DNA from: Rhodoferax sp. OV413
GTDB lineage: Bacteria > Pseudomonadota > Gammaproteobacteria > Burkholderiales > Burkholderiaceae_C
Length of the DNA stretch: 64,000 nt
Reading direction: 5' to 3'
NCBI GenBank assembly: GCA_945861785.1
Contig: CAMAWD010000012.1
Coordinates: 40,036-104,035 of the forward strand
The notes under the pieces are model-generated. The model searched no databases. It had not been told where the DNA came from and saw nothing but the letters and a program-made list of their open reading frames with translations. Each line of letters starts with the position of its first letter. Within the stretch, counting starts at the first letter, position 1. The translations under genes were made by a program, and so were the position numbers. Below, in pieces: positions 25,226-39,693 of this stretch.

Positions 25226-26545
25226 TCAAAGGCCTATCCGCTGCGACAGGACGGCCGGGACCACGGTGGGTGCGTCGCCGAGCACGATCAACTGTGCCAG
25301 CCGGGCACAAGCCAGGTCGGCATGCGTGTTGTCTGCGGCATGCACGGTTGCCAACAGCTCGCCCGCCTCCACACGCTGGCCCAAACCGACCACCTCGGTG
25401 AGCCCCACGCGGTGGTCGACGCTGTCGCTGGCCACCCGCCGGCCACCGCCGAGCTCGATCACCAGCAAGCCGATGTCACGCGTCGCCATCGCTTGAACCC
25501 AGCCACTGCGCTGCGCGACAACAACCCGTTGTACCGGTGCCGGCACCAGGTAGTGGGTGCCACGTTCCACGAAATCCACCGGCCCGCCCAATGCTGCCAC
25601 CATGCGTGCGAATCGCTCCAGCGCCGAGCCGTCCGCCAGCGCGCGGTCGACCAGCACCAGTGCCTGCGCCGTGTCGGACGCCAGCTTGCCCAGCACCAGC
25701 ATCTCTGCCGCCAGGGCCCGGGTGACCTCCAGCAGGCGTGGCTCGCGGCGGGCGCCGGTCAGGAAGTCGAGCGCCTCCAGCACTTCGAGCGCATTGCCGC
25801 AACTGTGGCCCAGCACCTGGTTCATGTCGGTGAGCAAGGCCCGTGTGGGCAGGCCGGCGCCGTTGGCCACATCCACCAGCGATTGGGCAAGCGCCCGGGC
25901 CATCCCGGGTGTGGCGGCGAACGCGCCGTTGCCGACTTTCACGTCCAGCACCAGGCCCTGCAGCCCGGCGGCCAGCTTCTTGGACAGGATGCTGGCGGTG
26001 ATCAACGGTATCGATTCCACCGTGGCAGTGACATCGCGGATGGCATACAGGCGCCGGTCGGCCGGCGCCAGTGTGGCGGTCTGGCCGATGATGGCGCAGC
26101 CGGCACCGCGCAGCGCAGCGCGCAGTCGCGAGGTATCCGGAGCGGTCTGGTAACCCGGGATGCTGTCCATCTTGTCGAGTGTGCCGCCGGTGTGGCCCAG
26201 GCCGCGGCCGGAAATCATGGGCACGAAACCACCGCAGGCGGCGACGATCGGGGCCAGCATCAGGCTGACCTTGTCACCCACGCCGCCGGTGGAATGTTTG
26301 TCCAGCACCGGCCCGCCGAGCTTGGCGCCGGCCCAGTCCATCACCTCGCCCGAATCGGTCATTGCTCGGGTCAGGGCGACGGTCTCGGTGGTGGAGAAAC
26401 CCTGCAAGAAAATGGCCATTGCCATCGCGGCGCATTGGGCGTCGCTCCAGCCGCCGTCGACCAGGCCGCGCACGAAGTCGTCGATCTGGGCGGCCGGCAG
26501 CGCCTGGCCGTCACGCTTGCGCCGGATGACTTCCTGGGCGAGCAT
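25226..26545 (-). CDS. deoA: Thymidine phosphorylase
   Basis: 439 residues. The phosphate-binding signature KHSTGGVGDK and the stretch SGRGLGHTGGTLDK identify the nucleoside phosphorylase II family, and the C-terminal pyrimidine nucleoside phosphorylase domain (GGGRRVASDSVDHRVG) is complete. The enzyme converts thymidine plus phosphate to thymine and deoxyribose 1-phosphate. It is the last gene of the nucleoside operon, eight bases behind deoC. Confidence 0.93.
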   Translation of the reverse strand: MLAQEVIRRKRDGQALPAAQIDDFVRGLVDGGWSDAQCAAMAMAIFLQGFSTTETVALTRAMTDSGEVMDWAGAKLGGPVLDKHSTGGVGDKVSLMLAPIVAACGGFVPMISGRGLGHTGGTLDKMDSIPGYQTAPDTSRLRAALRGAGCAIIGQTATLAPADRRLYAIRDVTATVESIPLITASILSKKLAAGLQGLVLDVKVGNGAFAATPGMARALAQSLVDVANGAGLPTRALLTDMNQVLGHSCGNALEVLEALDFLTGARREPRLLEVTRALAAEMLVLGKLASDTAQALVLVDRALADGSALERFARMVAALGGPVDFVERGTHYLVPAPVQRVVVAQRSGWVQAMATRDIGLLVIELGGGRRVASDSVDHRVGLTEVVGLGQRVEAGELLATVHAADNTHADLACARLAQLIVLGDAPTVVPAVLSQRIGL

Positions 26546-26553
26546 GTCTGGTT

Positions 26554-27333
26554 TCAGTACCGGTCGGGCGCCGCCAAGGGTGCCGCGCCCCCGCCCAGCA
26601 CAGCCTCGATGTCGCCCAGCAGGCTGCTGGCGCCGATACGCAGGCGCGCCGGCATCAAGGCCAGTGGGCCCAGGATATCTTGCACCAGAGAGAAGTAAGC
26701 AGTGGCTTCTGCAACCGTCCGGATACCACCTGAGGCCTTGAAACCTACCCGTGCAGCAGCAACAGGGTCAGCCGCAATGGCACGCAACATGGCCCGTGCC
26801 GCATCCAGCGTGGCGCTCACCGGTGTCTTGCCGGTGCTGGTCTTCAGGAAGTCAGCGCCCGCTTCGATGCTGAGTTCGGATGCACGGCGGACCAGGGCTT
26901 CGGTCTGCAGCGCACCTGTCTCCAGGATCACCTTGAGGCGCAGGCCGGGGCAGGCCGTGCGCACGGCCTGCAACAACGCGCGCACCGCAATTTCGTCCCC
27001 AGCCATCAGGCGCGCATAGGGCAAGACCACGTCAACCTCCTGCGCACCGGCACGCACGATTTCCTGGGTATCGCGCACGGCGCGCGCAAGGTCGGCGCTG
27101 CCGTCGGGGAAGTTGGCCACGGCGGCGACTGCAATGCCTGCAGGGACGTTGCGCCGGGCGAAAGCGGCGAACCGTGGCCACACACACACGGCCGCCGTGT
27201 CACCGAACGGTCCGTGCGCCCGGGCGCACAAGCTGGCGACATCGGCCTCGGTGTCGGCGTCGTTCAGGCTGGTCAGGTCGAGGCAGCGCAGCGCCAGGCG
27301 TGCTTGCGCCAGCGAATCAGCTTGGTCCGGCAT
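26554..27333 (-). CDS. deoC: Deoxyribose-phosphate aldolase
   Basis: 259 residues. The Schiff-base lysine region is ADFLKTSTGK, with KVILETGAL and GFKASGGIRT as the other family motifs. It splits deoxyribose 5-phosphate into glyceraldehyde 3-phosphate and acetaldehyde. Its start overlaps the 3' end of the purine nucleoside phosphorylase gene by 17 bases. No phosphopentomutase gene (deoB) is in the window, although it would be needed to link DeoA and DeoC. Confidence 0.93.
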   Translation of the reverse strand: MPDQADSLAQARLALRCLDLTSLNDADTEADVASLCARAHGPFGDTAAVCVWPRFAAFARRNVPAGIAVAAVANFPDGSADLARAVRDTQEIVRAGAQEVDVVLPYARLMAGDEIAVRALLQAVRTACPGLRLKVILETGALQTEALVRRASELSIEAGADFLKTSTGKTPVSATLDAARAMLRAIAADPVAAARVGFKASGGIRTVAEATAYFSLVQDILGPLALMPARLRIGASSLLGDIEAVLGGGAAPLAAPDRY

Positions 27334-28183
27334 CTGGTGCGCCTCCCAGTGGAATCGATCGGATCACTGCGGCCAGCAGGCCACCGGCACGTTCGCTCGC
27401 GGCCTTGGCTGCTGACAGGGTCAGCGCATGGCTGAGCGGCTCATCGGACAGGCCGGCGGCCATGTTGGTGATCAGTGACAGCGCCAGCACGCGCATGCCG
27501 GCATGGCGCGCAATCAGGGTCTCGGGCACCGTGCTCATGCCAACGGCATCTGCGCCCAGCAGTTTGAACGCGCGGATCTCAGCCGGGGTTTCGAATTGCG
27601 GGCCGAAGCACCACAGGTACACACCTTCATGCAGGTGCACACCGAGGCGCGTGGCCACCCGGCGCGCACCCAGGCGCAAGGCACGGTCGTAGGCGTCGGC
27701 CATGCCGACAAAACGCTCCGAGCCGCACTCCCCCACCAGCGGCGAGCGTTGCGGCAGGTTGATATGGTCGGACACCAGCATCAGGCTGCCCGGCCCCATG
27801 TCGGCATTCAGACTGCCGGCGGCGTTGGTCTGGACCAGCACCTCGCAACCCAGCGCATGCAGGCAACGCAGCGGAACCTTCATGCCGTCCACCGTCCCGG
27901 TTTCGTAGCCGTGTTTGCGCCCGCCCATCACCGCCACATCGACGGCGCCCAGACGCCCGAGCCAGAGTTCACCCGCGTGCCCCTCCACGCTGGCCTGCGG
28001 AAAACCCGGCAGGTCGGCATAAGGAATGCGGATTGCGCCGGCCATGTGGTCTGTAACGCCGCCCCAGCCGGAACCGAGCACGACGGCCACGCGGGGCAAC
28101 ACGCCGGGCGCGCGGGCACGCAGCGCCACAACTGCGTCGCCCACGTCTGCCGCAGTGGCGTCGGGTGGCCGCGGGGTGCTCAC
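27317..28183 (-). CDS. punA: Purine-nucleoside phosphorylase (trimeric PunA/XapA type)
   Basis: 288 residues. Motifs are VVLGSGWG (phosphate), HGYETG near residue 90, LVQTNAAGSLN, FGPQFETPAEIRAFKLLGAD and VGMSTVPE. These mark the trimeric low-molecular-mass family rather than the hexameric DeoD type. It phosphorolyses purine (deoxy)nucleosides, releasing the free base and (deoxy)ribose 1-phosphate. The start overlaps the cdd stop (ATGA). Confidence 0.9.
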   Translation of the reverse strand: MSTPRPPDATAADVGDAVVALRARAPGVLPRVAVVLGSGWGGVTDHMAGAIRIPYADLPGFPQASVEGHAGELWLGRLGAVDVAVMGGRKHGYETGTVDGMKVPLRCLHALGCEVLVQTNAAGSLNADMGPGSLMLVSDHINLPQRSPLVGECGSERFVGMADAYDRALRLGARRVATRLGVHLHEGVYLWCFGPQFETPAEIRAFKLLGADAVGMSTVPETLIARHAGMRVLALSLITNMAAGLSDEPLSHALTLSAAKAASERAGGLLAAVIRSIPLGGAPDAGPS

Positions 28184-28632
28184 TGGTGTACCTTCGCGCT
28201 GCGCGCGGCGAGGTGGTCGGGCCCGAAACTGTGGGGCAACAACTGGTCGAGCGTGAAGGCGGCGCGCACCTGCTGCGCGTTGGCGATCAGGACGGGCGTG
28301 TCGGGTGCGGCGAATTCACGGATTTTCTGGCGGCAGCCGCCGCACGGGGTGACCAAGCCATCACCCTGCCCTGCCACCAGCACCGCGCGCACCTCGGTGC
28401 CGCCAGCCAGCACCATCGCGCTCAGCGCACCGGCTTCGGCACACACCCCTTGCGGGTAGGCGGCGTTCTCGACATTGCAGCCGGCATGAATGCGTCCCTG
28501 CGCATCGAGCACCGCCGCGCCGACCAGGAACTTCGAATACGGCGCATGGGCCTGGCCCATGGCTTTGACTGCCGCGGCGAACAGCGCGTCACGTTGGGTG
28601 CCCGTCAGGGCGGGGGTTGCGCCATGGGCCAT
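28180..28632 (-). CDS. cdd: Cytidine deaminase
   Basis: 150 residues with the zinc site CAEAGAL and PCGGCRQ, the three-cysteine form typical of tetrameric cytidine deaminases, plus the substrate stretch GCNVENAAYPQG. It turns (deoxy)cytidine into (deoxy)uridine, feeding the pyrimidine phosphorylase encoded later in the operon. Three bases separate it from the permease stop. Confidence 0.92.
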   Translation of the reverse strand: MAHGATPALTGTQRDALFAAAVKAMGQAHAPYSKFLVGAAVLDAQGRIHAGCNVENAAYPQGVCAEAGALSAMVLAGGTEVRAVLVAGQGDGLVTPCGGCRQKIREFAAPDTPVLIANAQQVRAAFTLDQLLPHSFGPDHLAARSAKVHQ

Positions 28633-28635
28633 GGT

Positions 28636-29604
28636 TCAGCGGTCCTTGATGTAGGGTTTGCCCAGCGCCTGGGGCGCCACGGTACGGCCGATGAAACCGG
28701 CCAGAAGAACCACCGTCAACAGGTAGGGCAAGGCCTGTACCGCCTGCACCGGCACCTCGCCGATGCCCGGCAACTGCACGCCCTGCAGGCGGATCGCCAC
28801 TGCGTCCAGAAAACCGAACAACAGGCAGGCCCAGAATGCCCCCACCGGATGCCATTTGCCAAAAATAAGCGCCGCCAGCGCCATAAAGCCGCGACCTGCG
28901 GTCATGTTCGGCACAAAGGACGCGTTCTGCGCCAGCACCAGGTAACTTCCGGCCAGGCCGCACAACATGCCGTTGAGAGTCAGCGCCGCATAACGCATGC
29001 GCGTCACCGACACACCGGCTGCGTCGACCATGTGCGCGTTCTCGCCCACCGCGCGCAGGCGCAGGCCGAAACGGGTGCGGAACAAAAGCCACCAGACCGC
29101 AGGCACCAGCGCCAGCGTGGCGTAGACCATGATGTTGTGGCTCAGCAGCCCGTCGCCGATGATCGGCCCGAGCACCGCAATGCCCGTGAACCAGCCGGCC
29201 GCCTGCGGCATCACGGCCTGCAGGCGCACCTCTGAGGTGACCGGCGGTGTCTGCCCGCCCTGTGCGAACCACGCAATGCCCAGCACGGCCGTCATGCCGA
29301 CGGCGATGATGTTCACGGCCACACCCGAGACCACCTGGTCGCCGCGGTGGCTGACACAGGCCAAACCATGCAGCCAGGACAACATGACGGTGGTGCCAAG
29401 CGCCGCCAGCAGGGCCACGGCGGTGGAGCCTGACGTGACACCGGCGGCCCCGGCCGCAAATGCGGCAAACAGCATCTTGCCCTCCAGGCCGATATCGATC
29501 ACGCCGGCGCGCTCGGACAACAAACCCGCGAGAGCGCACAGAATCAGCGGCGTGGACACCCGCAAGGTGGAGGCGAGCAAGGCGCCGATCAGCGCGTCAT
29601 CCAC
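28636..29604 (-). CDS. Nucleoside ABC transporter permease (NupQ/YufQ type)
   Basis: 322 residues, about eight membrane helices. The FAAFAAGAAGV region and AGVIDIGLEGKML are characteristic of the second permease of BMP-type ABC importers, and GRGFMALAALIFGKWHP is the C-terminal conserved block. The best start is GTG 29604, which overlaps the stop of the upstream permease by eight bases; the longer frame to 29670 is antisense filler. It forms the channel with the next protein. Confidence 0.88.
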   Translation of the reverse strand: MDDALIGALLASTLRVSTPLILCALAGLLSERAGVIDIGLEGKMLFAAFAAGAAGVTSGSTAVALLAALGTTVMLSWLHGLACVSHRGDQVVSGVAVNIIAVGMTAVLGIAWFAQGGQTPPVTSEVRLQAVMPQAAGWFTGIAVLGPIIGDGLLSHNIMVYATLALVPAVWWLLFRTRFGLRLRAVGENAHMVDAAGVSVTRMRYAALTLNGMLCGLAGSYLVLAQNASFVPNMTAGRGFMALAALIFGKWHPVGAFWACLLFGFLDAVAIRLQGVQLPGIGEVPVQAVQALPYLLTVVLLAGFIGRTVAPQALGKPYIKDR

Positions 29605-30721
29605 GGGTTGACTCCTTGGGTGCGCCACGCAAGGCACCGATCGCCGATGTGACCCAGGGGGCCAGCACATAGGCCATGGCGCCGGAGAACAGCACGATGA
29701 AACCCTGCAGCATCACCACCATGTCGCGGCTGAAACCCTTGACCTCGAAACTCACCTCGGCACCGCCCTGGAACAGCGCGCCAAACAGCAGGCTCGCCAG
29801 CACGATGCCCAACGGATGGTTGCGCCCCATCAGCGCCACCGCGATGCCGGTGAACCCCGCACCGCTCACATATTCGAGCATCAGGCGCCCGGTGACACCT
29901 GCGATCTCGTTCATGCCGACCATGCCGGCGAGTGCGCCCGAGACCGCCATCGCCACCATCACCTGGTGCTTGGGGTTGATGCCGGCATACGCCGCGGCAC
30001 TGGCGCTGGCGCCAGTGGCGCGCAGGTCGTAACCGGCCCGCGTGCGCCACAGCAGCAGGTACACCGCCACGCAGGCCAGCAAGGCCAGGAACAGGCTGGT
30101 GTTGAGTGGTGAGGCCGGCCACTCGACACCGAACAGCGCCATGAAGTCGACCATGCTGGGCAGTTTGGCCGACGGCGCGAACGCGGCCGTCTCGACCGCC
30201 ATGCTGCCAGGCACCTTGAAATGGTTGACCAGCAGGTACACCAGCAAACTGCTGGCAAGAAAGTTGAACATGATGGTGGTGATCACGATGTGGCTGCCCC
30301 GGTAGGCCTGCAGGTAGGCCGGCACCACGGCCCACACCATCCCGAACAGCGCACCCGCCAATACCATCAGGGGCAGCATCACCCAGGCCGGCAGCGTGCC
30401 GGACAACCACAACGCAACCAGCCCGGTGCCAAGGCCTCCGAGGATGGCCTGCCCCTCGCCTCCGATGTTGAACAGGCCGCCATGGAAAGCCACCGACACG
30501 GCAAGCCCGGTGAAGATGAAGGTGGTGGTGTAGTACAGCGTGTAACTCAGGCCACGTTCGGTGCCGAACGCGCCGTGGATGAGCACCCGGATCACCTCCA
30601 GCGGGTTCTGTCCCACCAGCGCCACCATGGCGCCGGCGGCCAGCAGCGCCACCGCCAGGTTGACAACCGGCAACAGAAACAGATCGGCCCAGCGCGGCAA
30701 TGGCTGGCCGGCAAGGCTCAT
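29597..30721 (-). CDS. Nucleoside ABC transporter permease (NupP/YufP type)
   Basis: 374 residues of a multi-pass permease: TTTFIFTGLAVSVAFHGGLF then NIGGEGQAILGG is the hallmark of the first permease in BMP-linked nucleoside importers, and GYDLRATGASASAAAYAGI is the coupling region. ATG 30721 is preceded by GGAGG in a short repeated intergenic sequence. It lies 58 bases behind the ATPase gene. Confidence 0.9.
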   Translation of the reverse strand: MSLAGQPLPRWADLFLLPVVNLAVALLAAGAMVALVGQNPLEVIRVLIHGAFGTERGLSYTLYYTTTFIFTGLAVSVAFHGGLFNIGGEGQAILGGLGTGLVALWLSGTLPAWVMLPLMVLAGALFGMVWAVVPAYLQAYRGSHIVITTIMFNFLASSLLVYLLVNHFKVPGSMAVETAAFAPSAKLPSMVDFMALFGVEWPASPLNTSLFLALLACVAVYLLLWRTRAGYDLRATGASASAAAYAGINPKHQVMVAMAVSGALAGMVGMNEIAGVTGRLMLEYVSGAGFTGIAVALMGRNHPLGIVLASLLFGALFQGGAEVSFEVKGFSRDMVVMLQGFIVLFSGAMAYVLAPWVTSAIGALRGAPKESTRG

Positions 30722-30728
30722 GGGGAAA

Positions 30729-30779
30729 CCTCCATGCTGCGCATTGCGGTGCCATTCGCCTTGGGAGCGGCCCGGCGGC
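30729..30779 (-). repeat. Intergenic repeat copy 1 (before permease start)
   Basis: On the minus strand: GCCGGGCCGC, CCCAAGG, CGAAT and then GCGCAGCATGGAGG directly in front of a start codon. A close relative in the same position relative to a start codon lies at 36078-36123 on the plus strand. Confidence 0.55.
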
Positions 30780-32318
30780 TCACGCTGCTCCCCCGACCAT
30801 CAGCATCCCCAGCTTGGCCTCGGTGCACTGCGCGATCGGCAACTCGCCGGCGATGCGCCCCTGGTTCATGACGATGACACGGTCGGCCAGCGCCAGGATT
30901 TCGTCGAGTTCGCTCGACACCACCAGCACCGCGCAACCGGCGTCCCGCATGCTGCGCAGTTGCGAATAGATGAATTCGATGGCGCCGATGTCCACACCGC
31001 GGGTGGGTTGCCCGACCAGCAGCACCCGGGGCGCCTGGCCGAGTTCGCGCGCAAGCACCAGCTTTTGCTGGTTGCCGCCCGAGAAACTCGCACTCAGCAG
31101 GTGCGCATTGCGCGGGCGCACATCGAAACGCTGCATCATGTCGACCGTGGCAGTGTGCATGTGCGGATGGTTCATCCAGCCCTGGCGGCAATACAGCGGC
31201 AACCACTCGTAACCGAGCACAGCCGATTCCCAGGCCTCGAAACCCATGACCATGGCGCGTTCGTGGCGGTCCTCCGGCACATGGGCAACGCCCAGTTTGC
31301 GTGCGGTGCGCGGCGTCAACCAGGCGCCGGGCTTGAATGTTGCGCCCGCCACCTGCAGCGCGCCGCCACTGGGTGCGAGCAGGCCGGACAGGACCTCGAG
31401 CAGTTCACTCTGGCCGTTGCCCGATACACCAGCCACACCGACGATTTCTCCAGCACGCAGGGCGATACCAACATCCTGCAGACGCACCACCTTGAGCGCG
31501 TCGCGCACCACGATGCCGCTGGCATGCATCACCACGTCTCCGGGCGGCTTGTTGGTGTCGCCCTGGCGGCCCATCTGCACCTTGCGCCCGACCATCGCCT
31601 CGGCCAGGGACTCGACCGACGTGTCGCCAATGGCCACATCCTGAACCACACGCCCGGCGCGCATCACGGTGACGAAATCGCACAGGCGCATCACCTCCTT
31701 GAGCTTGTGGGTGATGAGCAAGATGGTGGTGCCCTGCGAACGCAGCAGCGCCAGCACGCCGAACAACTGCTCGGTTTCCTGGGGGGTGAGGACGGCGGTG
31801 GGTTCGTCCAGGATCAGGATGCGCGCACCGCGGTACAGGGTCTTGAGGATTTCCAGTCGCTGGCGGTCACCGACTGGCAGGTCGGCCACCAGCGCGTCGA
31901 GGTCCACATGCAGGCCGGTGGACTGCATCAGCGCCGCAAGTTTGCTGCGCACCTGCGCCTCGGCCTTGTGCAGCAGCACATGCGGCTCGGCGCCGAGCAT
32001 CACGTTCTCCAGCGCAGTGAGCGTGTCGACCAGCATGAAGTGCTGGTGCACCATGCCAATGCCCAGGGCAATTGCCTCGTGGGAATTGCGGATCGTGACC
32101 GGTTTTCCGTCGACCCGGATGGTTCCGCTGTCGCTGCTGTAAAAGCCGTACAGCACCGACATCAGGGTGCTCTTGCCGGCGCCGTTTTCGCCCACGATGC
32201 CGTGCACGGTGCCGGGCTGCACGCTGAGGTGCACGTCCGCGTTGGCCAGCACCGCGCCAAAACGCTTGTGGACACCGATCATCTCGACCGTGGGGCGGCG
32301 AGACACCACGGTCGTCAT
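30780..32318 (-). CDS. Nucleoside ABC transporter ATP-binding protein (NupO/YufO type, two NBDs)
   Basis: 512 residues with two nucleotide-binding domains in tandem. NBD1 has Walker A GENGAGKST near residue 40 and LILDEPTAVLTPQE. NBD2 has a degenerate Walker A (GVSGNGQSE), a signature FSGGNQQK and a VGQPTRGVD Walker B, the usual state in BMP-type and sugar importers. It powers import of nucleosides recognised by the BMP protein. It starts six bases behind the SBP stop. Confidence 0.92.
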   Translation of the reverse strand: MTTVVSRRPTVEMIGVHKRFGAVLANADVHLSVQPGTVHGIVGENGAGKSTLMSVLYGFYSSDSGTIRVDGKPVTIRNSHEAIALGIGMVHQHFMLVDTLTALENVMLGAEPHVLLHKAEAQVRSKLAALMQSTGLHVDLDALVADLPVGDRQRLEILKTLYRGARILILDEPTAVLTPQETEQLFGVLALLRSQGTTILLITHKLKEVMRLCDFVTVMRAGRVVQDVAIGDTSVESLAEAMVGRKVQMGRQGDTNKPPGDVVMHASGIVVRDALKVVRLQDVGIALRAGEIVGVAGVSGNGQSELLEVLSGLLAPSGGALQVAGATFKPGAWLTPRTARKLGVAHVPEDRHERAMVMGFEAWESAVLGYEWLPLYCRQGWMNHPHMHTATVDMMQRFDVRPRNAHLLSASFSGGNQQKLVLARELGQAPRVLLVGQPTRGVDIGAIEFIYSQLRSMRDAGCAVLVVSSELDEILALADRVIVMNQGRIAGELPIAQCTEAKLGMLMVGGAA

Positions 32319-32324
32319 CGGCTG

Positions 32325-33299
32325 TCAGTATTTGCAGGCGTTGGCGGCCATGTAGTCGGCCACCTTGATCTTGCCGCTGATGATGTCTGCACGGGCGGCG
32401 TCGACCTTCTTCTTCATGTCTGCCGGCACCAGCTTCTCGTTGTTGGCGTCCATCGCGAAACCCACGCCATCTTCCTTGAGGCCCAGCACCGACACGCCGG
32501 GCTTGTGGTTCTTGGAGACTTCGTACACCGCCACGTCGACCCGCTTGAGCATGGAGGTCAGCATGGTGCCGGGTTGCAGGTGATTCTGGTTGCTGTCGAC
32601 CCCGATGGCCAGCTTGCCACCGTCCTTGGCCGCCTGGTAGACGCCCATGCCGGTGCCGCCAGCGGCAGCAAACACGACGTCCGCGCCCTTCGCGAACTGG
32701 GCCTTGGCCAATTCGCCGCCGCGCGCCGGGTCGTTCCAGGCCGCGCCGGTGGTCCCGGTCATGTTGGCGAACACCTCGGCCTTGGCATTGGCGAACTTGG
32801 CGCCCTGCTCGTACCCGCACTGGAACTTGCGAATCAGCGGAATGTCCATGCCGCCAACAAACCCGACCTTGCCGCTCTTGCTGGCCATGGCGGCCATCAT
32901 GCCGACCAGAAAGCTGCCTTCCTGCTCCTTGAACACCACCGACTGCACATTGGGCTGCTTGACAACGTCATCGATGATCGCGAACTTGAGCTTGGGGAAA
33001 TCCTTGGCCACCTTGTCGACAGCCGACGCCATGCTGAAGCTCATGGCAATGATCGGGCTGGCGCCTTTTTCGGCCATGCGGCGGATCGCCTGCTCGCGCT
33101 GGGACTCGTTGGACACCTCGAACTCCAGGTACTGTTTGCTGGTTTCCTTCTTCCAGCGCTCCATGCCGTTGTAGGCCGCCTCGTTGAAAGACTTGTCGAA
33201 TTTGCCGCCAAGGTCATAGATGATGGCGGGCTCGGCATGCGCCTGCATGGCGGCGGTCACTGCCAGGGCCAGCACGGCGAGTTGGGGCTTGAATTTCAT
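32325..33299 (-). CDS. BMP-family nucleoside-binding periplasmic protein
   Basis: 324 residues with a cleaved signal peptide (MKFKPQLAVLALAVTAAMQA, no lipobox, so soluble periplasmic). The BMP/PnrA-like core shows YDLGGKFDKSFNEAAYNGMERW, AAAGGTGMGVYQAA and GVDSNQNHLQPGTMLTSMLKR. PnrA-like proteins bind purine or general nucleosides, fitting cdd, punA, deoC and deoA downstream. First gene of an eight-gene operon. A candidate promoter lies 30-58 bases upstream. Confidence 0.9.
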   Translation of the reverse strand: MKFKPQLAVLALAVTAAMQAHAEPAIIYDLGGKFDKSFNEAAYNGMERWKKETSKQYLEFEVSNESQREQAIRRMAEKGASPIIAMSFSMASAVDKVAKDFPKLKFAIIDDVVKQPNVQSVVFKEQEGSFLVGMMAAMASKSGKVGFVGGMDIPLIRKFQCGYEQGAKFANAKAEVFANMTGTTGAAWNDPARGGELAKAQFAKGADVVFAAAGGTGMGVYQAAKDGGKLAIGVDSNQNHLQPGTMLTSMLKRVDVAVYEVSKNHKPGVSVLGLKEDGVGFAMDANNEKLVPADMKKKVDAARADIISGKIKVADYMAANACKY

Positions 33300-33429: not shown

Positions 33430-34000
33430 CTACACGCGGTGCTGCGCATGCAAGCTGCCATCATAACCACCCAGTTTCCGGAACTGGACCGCGATGCTGC
33501 TGGCCAGACGGGCATTGTTGAGCACCAGCTCGATGTTGGTGGCCAGGCTGTCGCCGCCGGTCAACTCGGCCACGCGAGCGAGCAGGAACGGGGTCGCCAG
33601 CTTGCCGCCAATGCCCTGCGCATCGGCTTCCCACAGCGCCTGTTCAATTGCTGCGTGCACCTGCTCCGGTGGCATCGCTTACGCGTCGGGCACCGGGTTG
33701 GCCACCACCATGCCGCCCTGCAGGCCCAGCGTTCACTTGGCATGCATGGCGCGCGCGATCGCCTGCGGATCGTCGAGCCGGTAGTCGACCGAAAACTCGC
33801 TTTGCGCGGGGTAGAACGCGGGCAACCGGTGTATGCGCCAGCTCCTGCAAGTCCGCTGACACATCGAAACTCTGTGGCGCACCCCGGTGCACGGCGCCAT
33901 GGGCACGCACCTCGGCCTCGACCCGCAGTGCGGTCTGCACGTTCTGCGGATACGGCATGCCATGCGCGATGATGGTGGATTCCAGCGCCACCACCGGCTG
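33430..34000 (-). pseudogene. psuG: psuG (pseudouridine-5'-phosphate glycosidase) pseudogene
   Basis: Minus-strand pieces in order: the N-terminal [20 protein letters not shown] block, then RAHGAV joined directly to [17 protein letters not shown]. About 100 residues that normally lie between these are missing. A frameshift follows, then [27 protein letters not shown] ended by a stop (shown here as separate blocks [17 protein letters not shown] and AIARAMHAK), and finally the C-terminus GGKLATPFLLARVAELTGGD with ELVLNNARLA. At least one deletion, one frameshift and two stops make it non-functional. It lies upstream of the nucleoside operon, pointing the same way; PsuG normally completes pseudouridine breakdown. 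Confidence 0.85.
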
Positions 34001-34503: not shown

Positions 34504-35181
34504 ATGTTGAAGACCCCAGACTGGCACCCGGTTGTCCCTGCCCATCTGCTGGGCGCGGGCCAGCGGTTGCTGGCCACCCGGGTGCTGGGCCAAGACCTGG
34601 TGGCCTGGCGCAGCACGGACGGTGTTGCCCAGATCTGGCGGGACCGTTGCCCGCACCGGGGCGTGCGCCTGAGCCTGGGGCGCATTCTTGGTGGACGCCT
34701 GTCATGCGCCTACCACGGCTGGGAATTCGCGCCCGATACTGGCCGGTGCGAGGCAATTCCCGCACTGGCCGACCTGGCCCGGCTGCCTGGCCAGACGCAT
34801 GCCAGTGTGTGCGAAACCGCCGAATCGGGCCAGATGGTCTGGGTGCGCCTGGCCGCTGGTACGGCTGCGTCAGTGACCCCGCCACCGGGGGCCAGCCTGC
34901 CTGCCCCTGTACCCGGCCGGTTCCTGCGCTCCTTTGCGATCGGCACCTGCCGCGAGGCGCTGCACGCCTGCCTGCACCAGCGCGACTTCCAACCCGACGG
35001 TCCGGCCGCCTGGACCGGTGCAATGGCGGGCCAGGCTGTTCGCATGTTCCTCCAGGCGACGCAAGACGACCAGGTCATCGTGCATGCGTGGACGGACGAA
35101 CTTCCAGCAACGAAGCACCATGCGGGTCTGTTTGCCGCGCTGCGCCGCCTTCGCAGCGATGCCGAATCGGCGATCGGCTGA
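34504..35181 (+). CDS. Rieske [2Fe-2S] protein without an oxygenase catalytic site
   Basis: 225 residues. A full Rieske cluster site is present: CPHRG (C49, H51) and CAYHGW (C68, H71). The sequence around it resembles the N-terminal domain of PaO/vanillate-demethylase-type oxygenases. The remaining 130 residues lack the N-x2-D-x2-H-x4-H mononuclear-iron motif, so it cannot oxygenate by itself. ATG 34504 opens into LKTPDWHPV. The next gene, 18 bases on, carries the missing catalytic motif but no Rieske site, so the two products are likely partners, with this one acting as the electron carrier (inference). Confidence 0.8.
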   Translation: MLKTPDWHPVVPAHLLGAGQRLLATRVLGQDLVAWRSTDGVAQIWRDRCPHRGVRLSLGRILGGRLSCAYHGWEFAPDTGRCEAIPALADLARLPGQTHASVCETAESGQMVWVRLAAGTAASVTPPPGASLPAPVPGRFLRSFAIGTCREALHACLHQRDFQPDGPAAWTGAMAGQAVRMFLQATQDDQVIVHAWTDELPATKHHAGLFAALRRLRSDAESAIG

Positions 35182-35199
35182 ACCCGGCACGCAGCACCA

Positions 35200-36071
35200 T
35201 GCCCTTCACCACCGACGACCCCAACGTACGCCAGGACTGGCTCACGGTGGGCCCGGCCAGCCGCCTGCTGCACAGTTCGGCCCAGGCCCCAGTGCCCACA
35301 CGCTTGCTGGGTGCGCCGCTGCAGTTGTGGCGTGACGCCGCCGGGCGCCCGCAGTGCCGGGTGCACGGCCGGGCCCTTGCGGTGCAGGAGCGTTACGGCT
35401 ACCTGTGGGTCTGCAGCGCCGCGACACCCGGGCGCCCGCTGTTCGCGCTGCCGGAATTCGGCGAGCCGGGCCGCCGCATCGTGGACTGCGGCGGCATCGG
35501 TGTGGCCACCTCCGGCCTGCGCGTGGTGGAGAACTTCCTGGACATGGGCCATTTCCCGTACGTGCATACCGGCACGCTGGGCAAGGTTCCGCACACCACC
35601 GTGGCGCCGTACAGCGTCGAGACCGACCCGCAGACGCAGGAACTCTGGGCGCTGGACTGCCATTTCTACCAGCCGCAGGCTTCGGCCTCCGCAGCCGGCG
35701 GCATCGATGCGCAGTACCGCTACCGGGTGATGCAGCCGTTCAGTGCCGCGCTTTACAAGTCGTGCCCGAACCGCCCCGGCGCGCTGGACGTGATCGCACT
35801 GTTCATCCAGCCGCTGGACGAGGACCATGTGGTGGCGCATTGCCTGCTCGTGCTGTTCGAAGAGCAGCTGGGTGATGCCGAACTGATCGGTTTTCAGCAC
35901 ATGATCTTCGGCCAGGACAAGCCGATCCTCGAGAGCCAGCGGCCAAGTCGGCTACCCCTGGAAGGCGTGCTCGAGACACACATGCGGTGTGACCTCGCGT
36001 CCGTCAGCTACCGGCGCTGGCTCAAGGCGCGTGGCATGCGGTTTGGCGTGTATACAGACGTTGCGGAATGA
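35200..36071 (+). CDS. Rieske-oxygenase catalytic subunit lacking the Rieske cluster (NdmC-like layout)
   Basis: 290 residues. The mononuclear non-haem iron motif is intact in ENFLDMGHFPYVH (N112, D115, H118, H123), with the downstream acidic region MRCDLASVSYRRWLK. Where the Rieske domain should hold its two Cys-His pairs the sequence is shortened to LWRDAAGRPQCRVHGRALA, which cannot bind a cluster. This layout is known from NdmC of methylxanthine N-demethylation, which borrows a Rieske cluster from a partner and needs the GST-like NdmE. Here a Rieske-only protein precedes it and a GST follows. The substrate is unknown; a methylated purine is one guess. No oxygenase reductase is in the window. 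Confidence 0.8.
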
Positions 36072-36077
36072 GCGCCG

Positions 36078-36123
36078 CGCCGGGCCGCCCCAAGGGCGAA
36101 TTCAATGATGCGCAACATGGAGG
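36078..36123 (+). repeat. Intergenic repeat copy 2 (before GST start)
   Basis: GCCGGGCCGC, CCCAAGGGCGAAT and GCGCAACATGGAGG lie between the oxygenase stop and the GST start. It is a close relative of the minus-strand copy at 30729-30779. It supplies the GGAG ribosome site of the GST gene. Confidence 0.55.
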
Positions 36124-36130
36124 AGACCTG

Positions 36131-36787
36131 ATGACCACCGGCGGCCCTGCCCACGCGCTGCAGCTGTACGACTACGAACTCTCCGGCAACTGCTACAAGG
36201 TGCGCCTGCTGCTGAACTGGCTGGGGCTGGGGTACACCCGGATCCCGGTGGACTTTCACCCCGGTCGCGCGCACAGGTCGGCCCACTTCATCGACCACGT
36301 GAATGCGCGCGGCCAATTGCCGGTGCTGCAGGACGGCGCGTTCCTGCTGCCAGACGCGCAGGCCATCCTGGTCTACCTGGCCAGCCGTTATGACCCGCAC
36401 GGACGCTGGTACCCGGCCGATGCGCCGACGCGCGGCCGCATCAGCCTGTGGCTGGCCACGGCCGACGACATCACCCGTACCGTATCGGCCGCGCGCCTGC
36501 ACCTCGGTTTCGGTTACGCTGCCGACCTCGCCAGCTGCCAGGCAGGCGGCCGCGCCGTGCTGCGCCTGCTCGACGACCAGTTGGCCGAGAACCAATACGC
36601 CGCACAGGAGTGGCTGGCAGGCAGCCACCCGACGATTGCCGACATCGCATGTTTTCCCTATGCCGCGCTGGCGGGTGAGGCCGGCATCGACCTGATCGCA
36701 TTCCCGGCCCTGCAGCGCTGGATCTGGAACCTGCGGCATGTGCCGGGGTTCATTGCGATGCCCGGCATACTAGACCCTGCGCTTTAG
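36131..36787 (+). CDS. Glutathione S-transferase-like protein of the Rieske operon
   Basis: 218 residues. The thioredoxin-like N-domain (LQLYDYELSGNCYKVRLLLN, with a serine at the usual catalytic position), cis-proline GQLPVL and the SNAIL-like DAQAI motif are clear; the C-domain has GSHPTIADIACFPY. ATG 36131 follows AGGAG; an ATG at 36068 overlapping the oxygenase stop is a weaker option. It may be a true GST or, like NdmE, a structural partner of the oxygenase; the operon position favours the second reading, but this is inference. Confidence 0.82.
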   Translation: MTTGGPAHALQLYDYELSGNCYKVRLLLNWLGLGYTRIPVDFHPGRAHRSAHFIDHVNARGQLPVLQDGAFLLPDAQAILVYLASRYDPHGRWYPADAPTRGRISLWLATADDITRTVSAARLHLGFGYAADLASCQAGGRAVLRLLDDQLAENQYAAQEWLAGSHPTIADIACFPYAALAGEAGIDLIAFPALQRWIWNLRHVPGFIAMPGILDPAL

Positions 36788-36817
36788 CATTGATTGAATG
36801 AAACAGGAGCCCACACC

Positions 36818-37837
36818 ATGAAGATACTGATTACCGGCGGCGGCGGATTCGTCGGCGCGCGCCTGGCCCGCACCCTGCTCGCACGCGGCCAGCTGAACGG
36901 CCGTTCCATCCGCACACTGGTGCTGGCCGACCAGATCGCGCCGCCGGCCGACCTGCTGGCCGACGCCCGCGTGCAGGGCCGTACCGGCACCCTGCTTGCG
37001 CAGTGCGACGACTTGCACCACGAGCCGTTTGACGGCGTGTTCCACCTCGCCTCGGCGGTGTCGGGCGAATGCGAGCTGGATTTCGACCTCGGCATGCGCT
37101 CCAACATCGACAGCACACGCGCCCTGCTCGATGCGCTGCGCGCCTCGGGACAGGCGTCGGGCGTGCCGGCCCGGCTGGTGTTTTCCAGCTCGGTCGCTGT
37201 GTTCGGCCCCGACGCCAGCGTGCCGCTTGCGGCGCGCGTTGCCGACGACACCCTGCCCGCCCCGCAGACATCCTATGGTGTTCAGAAACTGGTGTGTGAA
37301 CACCTGGTGGCCGACTACACGCGCAAGGCTTACATCGACGGGCGCGCCGCGCGCCTGATGACCGTGACGGTGCGGCCGGGCAAACCGAACGGCGCGGCCT
37401 CGTCCTTCTTCTCGGGCATCATCCGCGAGCCACTGGCAGGTGTGTTATCCGTCTGCCCGGTGGACGACCAGGTGTCGCACCCGATGTCCTCACCCGCACG
37501 GGCGGTGGAGGGCCTGATCGCAGTGTTCGAGGCCAGTCGCGAAGCCTTCGGCGGGCGGCTGGCGTTGAACCTGCCGGCGCTCAACGTGCGCGTGTGCGAC
37601 ATGCTCGACGCGCTGGAAGAAGTGGCCGGCCCAAAAGTTCGCGCGCTGGTGCGTTTCGAACGCGACGCGCGCATTGCCGGCATTGTGGCCAACTGGCCCG
37701 CCGGCGCCAGCGCGCAGCGTGCAAAACACCTGGGACTGGCACCCGATGGGAGCTTCACCGACATCATCCGGCAATACATCGCCGACTGCCGGCAACGGCC
37801 GGACGCGGCGCAGACCCTGGCCGGCCTGGCGGGATAG
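36818..37837 (+). CDS. NAD-dependent epimerase/dehydrogenase, DenD-like
   Basis: 339 residues of the extended short-chain dehydrogenase family. GGGGFVGARLARTLL is the NAD-binding loop, VFHLASAVSGE and FSSSVAVFGP lead to the catalytic YGVQK (Tyr-x3-Lys), and TVRPGKPNGAASSFFSGIIREPL is characteristic of D-erythronate dehydrogenase-type proteins. It would oxidise a four-carbon sugar acid or a similar hydroxy acid. It is the last gene of the Rieske operon (30-base gap), which is unusual company for DenD and may point to a different substrate. Confidence 0.82.
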   Translation: MKILITGGGGFVGARLARTLLARGQLNGRSIRTLVLADQIAPPADLLADARVQGRTGTLLAQCDDLHHEPFDGVFHLASAVSGECELDFDLGMRSNIDSTRALLDALRASGQASGVPARLVFSSSVAVFGPDASVPLAARVADDTLPAPQTSYGVQKLVCEHLVADYTRKAYIDGRAARLMTVTVRPGKPNGAASSFFSGIIREPLAGVLSVCPVDDQVSHPMSSPARAVEGLIAVFEASREAFGGRLALNLPALNVRVCDMLDALEEVAGPKVRALVRFERDARIAGIVANWPAGASAQRAKHLGLAPDGSFTDIIRQYIADCRQRPDAAQTLAGLAG

Positions 37838-39066: not shown

Positions 39067-39693
39067 ATGCTGCTCGATGACCAGGAATGCCAGTTGGTTC
39101 TGGTGGACTACCAGGCACGGCTGATGCCCGCCATCTTCGAAGGCACGCAGGTGCTGGCCAATGCCGTGCGCCTTGCCCGGATGGCCCAGGCCATGCAGGT
39201 GCCGCTGTTCGGAACCGAGCAGAACCCGGAGAAACTGGGCGAAAACATGCCGGAGCTGCGCACCATCATCACGGAATGCAAGGGCCGCACACTCGCCAAG
39301 ATGGCGTTCAGCGCCTGCCCCGACGGGCTGGTCGACTGGCTGCGCCCGCCACAGCGGCAGGCAGCCACCGGTGGCAATGCGCGCAGCCTGCCCAGGCACC
39401 TGCAAAAAGCCGTGCCGCCGCCTGACCGCCCGGAGCGCAACAGCATCGTCATCGCTGGCTGCGAAACCCATGTCTGCCTGCTTCAGACCGCCCTGGAGTT
39501 GCTGGAGCAGGAGTTCGAGGTCTGGGTCGTGACCGACGCCTGCGGTTCGCGCACGGAACGCAACCGCGACGCGGCCTTCGACCGGTTGGCCGGCAACGGC
39601 GCGGAACTGGTAACCACCGAGATGGTGGCCTTCGAGTGGCTCCGCACGGCGGAGCACCCGATGTTCAAACCGGTGCAGGCACTGATCAAGTAG
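39067..39693 (+). CDS. Isochorismatase-family cysteine hydrolase
   Basis: 208 residues. The catalytic triad regions are visible: Asp in LVLVDYQARL, Lys in GRTLAKMAFSAC and Cys in AGCETHVCLLQTALEL. The cis-peptide region precedes the cysteine. Family members hydrolyse amides, isochorismate or related bonds; the substrate is not deducible. An insertion between LVDWLRPP and PERNSIV (about 25 residues, Ala/Pro-rich) is unusual. It stands alone with a gene of unrelated function 45 bases downstream. Confidence 0.82.
   Translation: MLLDDQECQLVLVDYQARLMPAIFEGTQVLANAVRLARMAQAMQVPLFGTEQNPEKLGENMPELRTIITECKGRTLAKMAFSACPDGLVDWLRPPQRQAATGGNARSLPRHLQKAVPPPDRPERNSIVIAGCETHVCLLQTALELLEQEFEVWVVTDACGSRTERNRDAAFDRLAGNGAELVTTEMVAFEWLRTAEHPMFKPVQALIK

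Follow-up and report, generated by a model that had tools for sequence, protein, structure and literature searches.

Of the characterised enzymes, the one closest to the system reported here is NdmCDE, the methylxanthine N7-demethylase of Pseudomonas putida CBB5. Its NdmC is described as a protein without a Rieske site, which is supplied with electrons by the N-terminal Rieske domain of NdmD and requires the glutathione S-transferase (GST)-like NdmE, and the three proteins are reported to form a 3:3:3 complex specific for 7-methylxanthine (PMC4408171, PMC10380055). Functional demethylation genes are also described on a plasmid of the caffeine degrader Paraburkholderia caffeinilytica CF1 (PMC10380055). 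The fused form is already known outside caffeine degraders, as 18 further organisms, for the most part Sinorhizobium and Mesorhizobium, are reported to have ndmCDE homologs of unknown function (PMC4408171). A further purine-linked enzyme, HpxDE, is reported to oxidise hypoxanthine and xanthine (PMC7373994). Here we analyse a stretch of 64,000 nt from Rhodoferax sp. OV413 (GCA_945861785.1, contig CAMAWD010000012.1, positions 40,036-104,035 of the forward strand; hereafter the window), in which the two metal sites of a Rieske oxygenase are divided between two adjacent open reading frames (ORFs), RSK (34504-35181) and CAT (35199-36071), followed by a GST-like gene. With a probability of roughly two in three, we consider RSK and CAT to form a single Rieske oxygenase encoded by two genes, in which the GST-like protein holds the two parts together and which likely demethylates a purine base.

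Two adjacent genes with complementary metal sites

The operon consists of four plus-strand genes in the order RSK, CAT, GST-like and D-erythronate-dehydrogenase type, separated by gaps of 17, 59 and 30 nt. RSK (34504..35181, plus strand, 225 aa), the putative stand-alone Rieske [2Fe-2S] donor, has the Rieske family PF00355 (E 2e-18) as its sole Pfam match at E 1e-3; its Rieske site is intact, with the ligands C49, H51, C68 and H71 (CPHRG ... CAYHGW; 34648..34716, plus strand) invariant across 48 aligned RSK proteins and NdmD N-termini, and it has no mononuclear-iron motif. CAT (35199..36071, plus strand, 290 aa), an NdmC-type oxygenase subunit, matches PF19112 VanA_C only (E 7.9e-20), lacks the Rieske loop and carries the iron motif E111-N112-F-L-D115-M-G-H118-F-P-Y-V-H123 (35529..35567, plus strand). 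Residues E111, N112, D115, H118, H123 and D240 (35916..35918, plus strand) are invariant across 69 aligned CATs; judging by motif position, we take D115 to be the Asp that bridges to the neighbour's Rieske site in Rieske oxygenases, and D240 to be the probable third iron ligand. The fold predicted for either protein is that of a two-domain Rieske oxygenase, RSK aligning full-length with oxygenase alpha subunits, and the best solved-structure matches are SxtT/GxtA, NdmA and NdmB. By this prediction opposite halves of the fold are disabled in the two proteins, RSK retaining a catalytic domain that is reduced in size and lacks the iron motif.

An earlier reading of this DNA from its letters alone (the sequence-only reading) had described a Rieske-only protein followed by an iron-only protein and, in the same operon, by GST-like and DenD-like genes. 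The Pfam matches and motif positions confirm the complementary sites, and matches to GST_N and GST_C and to NF043036 (above its cut-off) confirm the two genes downstream; only the start of CAT, given as 35200, had to be moved to 35199. That reading had also named in advance what would speak against it, namely best matches to PaO-type oxygenases with intact Rieske sites. The outcome was the opposite: a protein database holds 4457 CAT relatives over threshold, and among the 120 homologs listed (251-312 aa) none has a Rieske Pfam domain.

The GST-like protein (36131..36787, plus strand, 218 aa) would be the NdmE-type third protein, and an alternative start exists at 36068, in an overlapping ATGA across the CAT stop. 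Its identity is 70% to the GST of the congener L020 (L-numbers denote individual related loci) and 48% to the one encoded in the P. caffeinilytica ndm cluster, in line with the NdmE-like partner that had been proposed. The family signature, Y-D-Y-E-L-S-G-N-C-Y-K and D-A/S-Q-A-I-L, is kept. Its A/S position, which we take to be the place where canonical GSTs carry the glutathione-binding Ser, is A in 54/77 rows and S in 17/77, and this A-for-Ser pattern hints at a structural role of the protein.

Recurrence of the split and its layouts

The split is spread over a large family with several layouts, in which the donor stands alone, is accompanied by a separate reductase, is fused to a reductase or has just a ferredoxin domain as its fusion partner. 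Across 84,980 species genomes, 264 CAT relatives were found, and the best 80 loci minus L032 and L046 make up the 78 loci counted below, a set that leans towards the query. The removed rows L022, L023, L032 and L046 are duplicates or contig pieces of other rows; L038 and L039 (same CAT, same RSK) enter the counts twice. The CAT and RSK proteins of a contig labelled Planctomycetota are identical to those of a Piscinibacter contig (L038, L039), and the former is probably a misbinned metagenome contig.

Motif complementarity was scored class-free, on ORFs best matching CAT-type or RSK/NdmD queries. Iron motif without Rieske site is the state of 116/120 CAT-type ORFs, the remaining four comprising three with neither site (117, 215 and 285 aa) and one with both (the intact L024). 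Conversely, 79 of the 84 RSK/NdmD-type ORFs have a Rieske site without iron motif, and the other five have neither, four of them being sized like separate reductases. The iron-motif pattern skips HpxD-type proteins, in which G replaces N, and for this reason L112 and L156 were labelled intact by hand in the trees.

A stand-alone donor (<=260 aa) is present in 22/78 loci, of which 11 also encode a separate reductase-type protein and 11 do not; the donor is fused to a reductase in 48/78 (the fused form L061 has Rieske, NAD-binding and Fer2 domains). In another three, all from Paraburkholderia (L069, 8671-9840; L090; L097), donors of 388-397 aa end in a plant-type-ferredoxin-like stretch and have, from sequence, no flavin or NADH domain; these may be read as reduced NdmD. 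The donor of L108 runs off the end of its locus, and four loci have no donor. A GST match is absent from nine loci, whose sequence stops shortly past the CAT or donor gene. RSK and CAT are kept together in three of the six congeners searched, and the split is found as well in other Burkholderiales, acetic acid bacteria and Rhizobium; on a Rhizobium leguminosarum plasmid the donor, CAT, GST, amidohydrolase, BMP and ABC genes are consecutive, without a reductase. When the order was searched with the RSK alignment, 15/120 genomes matched at E 1e-25, mostly in open frames of 329-655 residues (the window's own frame has 252); these matches are provisionally read as intact oxygenases or fusions, and the count is not a prevalence figure.

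This recurrence bears on the idea that RSK and CAT are two pieces of one broken PaO-type oxygenase gene, produced by a frameshift, an assembly error or decay. Two adjacent ORFs do match one intact oxygenase here, and a neighbouring psuG gene really is broken, but we give the idea practically no chance. A CAT without Rieske loop and an RSK without iron motif cannot result from a single frameshift, and a broken gene of any of these kinds is ruled out by a split that is conserved in congeners, in 22/78 further loci and on the Rhizobium plasmid, with invariant ligands. Since only the donor-to-catalytic interface can be productive in such a pair, the split enzymes offer a natural system for one-direction intersubunit electron transfer.

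Phylogeny and order of events

For 101 catalytic domains a tree was computed by a quick maximum-likelihood search without bootstrap; for this tree and the RSK tree the loci were thinned by 25 further ones. The Rieske-less CATs form one clade of 77 rows with a Shimodaira-Hasegawa-like approximate likelihood ratio (SH-aLRT) support of 100 and no both-motif rows inside. The intact proteins placed closest to them are L024 (92) together with seven oxygenases from the window's family. One half of the clade (SH-aLRT 81) holds the window, other Burkholderiales, acetic acid bacteria and the Rhizobium plasmid; the other (SH-aLRT 83) holds the NdmC-type proteins of P. caffeinilytica, P. putida KF715 and Klebsiella together with alphaproteobacteria. 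The proposal of an NdmC-like second protein is thus upheld by its clade. The expectation that NdmC-like proteins would be the best matches does not hold for the solved structures, where SxtT/GxtA, NdmA and NdmB came up because no NdmC structure was among those found.

In the window's half the donor stands alone, and most donors of the NdmC half are fusions with a reductase (NdmD). Layout agrees with the tree, with three changes over 76 rows, of which 28 have no fusion to a full reductase and 48 are fused. The Rieske-domain tree recovers the same groups: RSK and the NdmD N-termini form one clade (59 rows, SH-aLRT 100), and the reductase fusions fall in one branch (98) with four unfused or differently fused rows. 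The GST tree separates split and fused groups less cleanly (five changes), and two outgroup rows in it sit on very long branches; no conclusion is drawn from this tree. The Rieske-domain tree and alignment support RSK as the stand-alone counterpart of the NdmD Rieske N-terminus, in keeping with the stand-alone donor that had been proposed.

One could instead suppose that RSK is a Rieske ferredoxin serving another oxygenase and that CAT works with a different partner. RSK is small and fast-varying, and the genome is rich in Rieske oxygenases, with 22 matches to RSK at E 1e-3. Against this, RSK aligns over its full length with oxygenase alpha subunits and scores best against oxygenases, the T4MOC ferredoxin reaching just 22.4 bits; moreover, pairwise RSK distances track those of CAT (r 0.93, 55 loci) more closely than either tracks GST (0.69 and 0.70), values that are uncorrected for relatedness. 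We regard a separate ferredoxin as very improbable.

None of the intact outgroup proteins carries a fused reductase, and by parsimony on these quick trees the reductase fusion is probably derived and the stand-alone donor the older arrangement. The intact L024 protein (344 aa) has 22 matches in the window's genome, and the top two are CAT and RSK: its residues 101-340 match CAT (42%) and its residues 13-133 match RSK (46%). As a tentative scenario, which we hold to be possible rather than probable, a purine oxygenase may have been duplicated and its copies may have lost opposite metal sites, giving a widespread obligate two-chain Rieske oxygenase; the donor would originally have stood alone, NdmD would be a later fusion, and the free version would salvage methylpurines from RNA turnover (e.g. 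7-methylguanine) by way of a shared reductase.

Purine and formaldehyde context

A BMP-type binding protein is encoded in 58/78 loci and in 12/22 stand-alone-donor loci; this count is safer than that of ABC-ATPase matches, which may take in unrelated transporters. Matches to frmA or frmB, formaldehyde-detoxification genes, occur in 22/78 loci, eight of them among the 22 stand-alone-donor loci, and representative copies score over the curated cut-offs. Beside CAT in Gluconobacter (L055) lie a guanine deaminase (366 bits, just below the cut-off of 375) and an 8-oxoguanine deaminase (550 versus a cut-off of 532). The window's genome encodes FrmA (on another contig, C7) as well as XdhB and guanine deaminase (about 13 kb apart on contig C5), all above curated cut-offs. 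Gene context in the relatives, rather than any assay, thus speaks for the modified purine or nucleoside that the sequence-only reading had suggested as substrate.

The intact sister loci were compared in eight cases, the weaker intact L013-L015 and L017 being left out. All eight have an adenosine deaminase beside the oxygenase, seven have BMP and three an amidohydrolase of the 8-oxoguanine-deaminase type, and neither frmA nor frmB was scored in any of them. This context suits a second interpretation, in which the two-part oxygenase is the same and acts as an HpxD-like purine-ring hydroxylase, not an N-demethylase: the window likewise lacks frmAB, and HpxDE provides a precedent in its oxidation of hypoxanthine and xanthine (PMC7373994). 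In contrast, the NdmC-type protein falls inside the Rieske-less clade, formaldehyde-detoxification genes accompany 22 of the 78 loci, and a standard xanthine dehydrogenase is already available to this bacterium. As neither the sister loci nor the window have frmAB beside the oxygenase, a hydroxylase is the next best interpretation, at a probability that we judge to be low.

That the operon is a plain NdmCDE homolog of a caffeine degrader, an N-demethylase acting on plant methylxanthines (caffeine, theobromine, 7-methylxanthine), receives some backing from the sister loci L037, L038, L039, L040, L041 and L045. These form a 14-row clade with the window, and each has intact oxygenases of NdmA/NdmB-like type as well as frmA or frmB. 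However, no NdmA/NdmB-like gene lies beside the window operon, the top intact oxygenases that NdmA-type queries find elsewhere in the genome reach only ~22-31%, and the operon's neighbours are general nucleoside genes. We therefore regard a caffeine-type substrate as unlikely.

Those neighbours lie to the left of the operon on the minus strand (25229..33299) and are genes of nucleoside uptake and breakdown: a BMP-type binding protein, an ABC ATPase, two permeases, a cytidine deaminase, a purine nucleoside phosphorylase, a DeoC-type aldolase and a pyrimidine nucleoside phosphorylase. The binding protein, phosphorylases, deaminase and aldolase were assigned by Pfam; for the ATPase and permeases the assignment follows from the place of their ORFs and from homology to congeners. 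Between them and the operon lies a broken gene (33451-33997, minus strand), which we take from its family PF04227 to be a pseudouridine-5'-phosphate glycosidase (psuG-type); its pieces lie in different frames and correspond to residues 10-45, 118-153 and 172-301 of the 307-aa protein of a congener, residues 46-117 being gone, and the congeners L020, L021 and L033 have one long copy at the equivalent place. On the other side, the last gene of the operon (36818..37837, plus strand) is a short-chain dehydrogenase of D-erythronate dehydrogenase (DenD) type, belonging to family NF043036 at 347.2 bits versus a cut-off of 325; it stands beside the operon only in the window's genus (congeners L020, L021 and L023) and in 0/78 other related loci. 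Further downstream, at 39067-39693 (plus strand), is an isochorismatase-family gene with a relative downstream of the same operon in the congeners L020 and L023.

Proposed function

Kinship with NdmCDE, the frm genes, the BMP and purine context and the downstream enzymes in the genome make N-demethylation of a methylated purine the best inference for this operon. In the mechanism that we propose, an unlinked NADH-dependent reductase encoded elsewhere would reduce the Rieske cluster of RSK, which would sit beside CAT like adjacent subunits of an ordinary oxygenase trimer, in an assembly expected to be 3:3:3 by analogy with the reported NdmC/NdmD/NdmE complex. Electrons would pass from RSK via D115 of CAT to the iron that H118, H123 and D240 bind, where CAT would activate O2 and hydroxylate the N-methyl group, with release of formaldehyde. 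The likeliest substrate would be a methylated purine, such as 7-methylguanine or 7-methylxanthine, supplied by the neighbouring nucleoside transporter and phosphorylase; the formaldehyde would be oxidised by the glutathione-dependent formaldehyde dehydrogenase encoded elsewhere in the genome, and the demethylated purine would enter ordinary breakdown through guanine deaminase and xanthine dehydrogenase.

Several observations weigh against this proposal. No frmA or frmB is among the annotated neighbours of the window operon, and none is within reach in 14/22 stand-alone-donor loci. No reductase of the tested type is encoded in the window; elsewhere in the genome there are 11 reductase matches with no obvious partner of RSK among them, the best (42% identical) lying beside an intact oxygenase on contig C36. 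Redox partners of Rieske oxygenases are, for their part, reported to be often not co-located in natural-product pathways (PMC12445004). Near the operons from 18 sources, Rfam gave no match at gathering scores, neither to a purine riboswitch nor to any other family, and the same-strand D-erythronate-dehydrogenase-type gene has no role in a demethylase. The system is also patchy, RSK and CAT being absent from three of the six congeners searched, and the deep split of the CAT clade is carried by SH-aLRT values of only 81 and 83 in a quick tree. As for RSK, it is far more variable among congeners (40-43% identity) than CAT (68-76%). Its C-terminal part, compared on its own, gives no match to the intact-oxygenase profile (probability 0.2%), and its match to the CAT profile (77%) covers just 37 columns; descent of this part from a catalytic domain is thus weak by profile, and the predicted fold supports it. 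Finally, with CAT just 43% identical to the P. caffeinilytica NdmC type, the substrate may differ from that of the latter.

If the proposal is right, the operon represents a candidate bacterial route for the breakdown of methylated purines outside the caffeine pathway, and the distribution and complementary loss of the metal sites should be of interest to the fields of Rieske oxygenases and purine metabolism.

Comparison with known systems

Three-component Rieske oxygenases resemble the window system in using a separate Rieske protein as electron carrier; in those systems, however, the oxygenase has its own Rieske site and the carrier is of small ferredoxin fold, whereas CAT has no such site and RSK is predicted to have a two-domain oxygenase fold. 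The ordinary oxygenases of solved structure, NdmA/NdmB and SxtT/GxtA, have the fold of both window proteins and carry both metal sites in each chain, of which RSK and CAT each miss one; the defining feature of one-chain PaO/VanA-type enzymes, both sites on the same chain, is accordingly not found here. HpxDE shares the link to purines, and HpxD (row L156) occupies a neighbouring branch of the tree, but HpxD is intact and adjoins its own reductase gene, neither of which is true of the window. The intact Comamonadaceae oxygenases and L024, sister to the Rieske-less clade, share the purine-nucleoside context (adenosine deaminase, BMP transporter); they differ in having both sites in a single chain, and an NdmE-type GST was scored in 0/8 of their loci.

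The nearest NdmCDE-type sequence compared is the CF1 plasmid (L113, 13992-16628), to which identity is 43% for CAT, 27% for the donor and 48% for the GST. On this plasmid the NdmC- and NdmD-type genes are annotated from the late starts 14160 and 15234, with frames open from ~13992 and ~14862, and the annotated NdmD-type protein loses its Rieske domain because its start is placed too late. At L112, L113 and L114 (Pseudomonas, Paraburkholderia and Klebsiella plasmids), genes for a 2-oxoglutarate/iron oxygenase and a TIM-barrel protein adjoin the NdmC-type genes.

Compared with NdmCDE, the donor is a separate protein of 225 aa instead of the N-terminus of a reductase of ~588 aa, and the operon has neither a reductase nor flanking frmA and frmB. 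As the defining Rieske-reductase fusion (NdmD) is missing, the window system is not a strict member of NdmCDE, and to this extent the NdmC/NdmE-like system of the sequence-only reading, largely right otherwise, has to be qualified. We found no report of a stand-alone donor in open-licence PubMed Central papers. The common features are a Rieske-less oxygenase subunit with the iron motif, a Rieske donor borne by a partner protein and a GST-like protein encoded alongside as the third gene, and the window proteins share one CAT clade and one Rieske-donor clade with the NdmC and NdmD types. Taken together, this comparison suggests that the window system probably works like NdmCDE.

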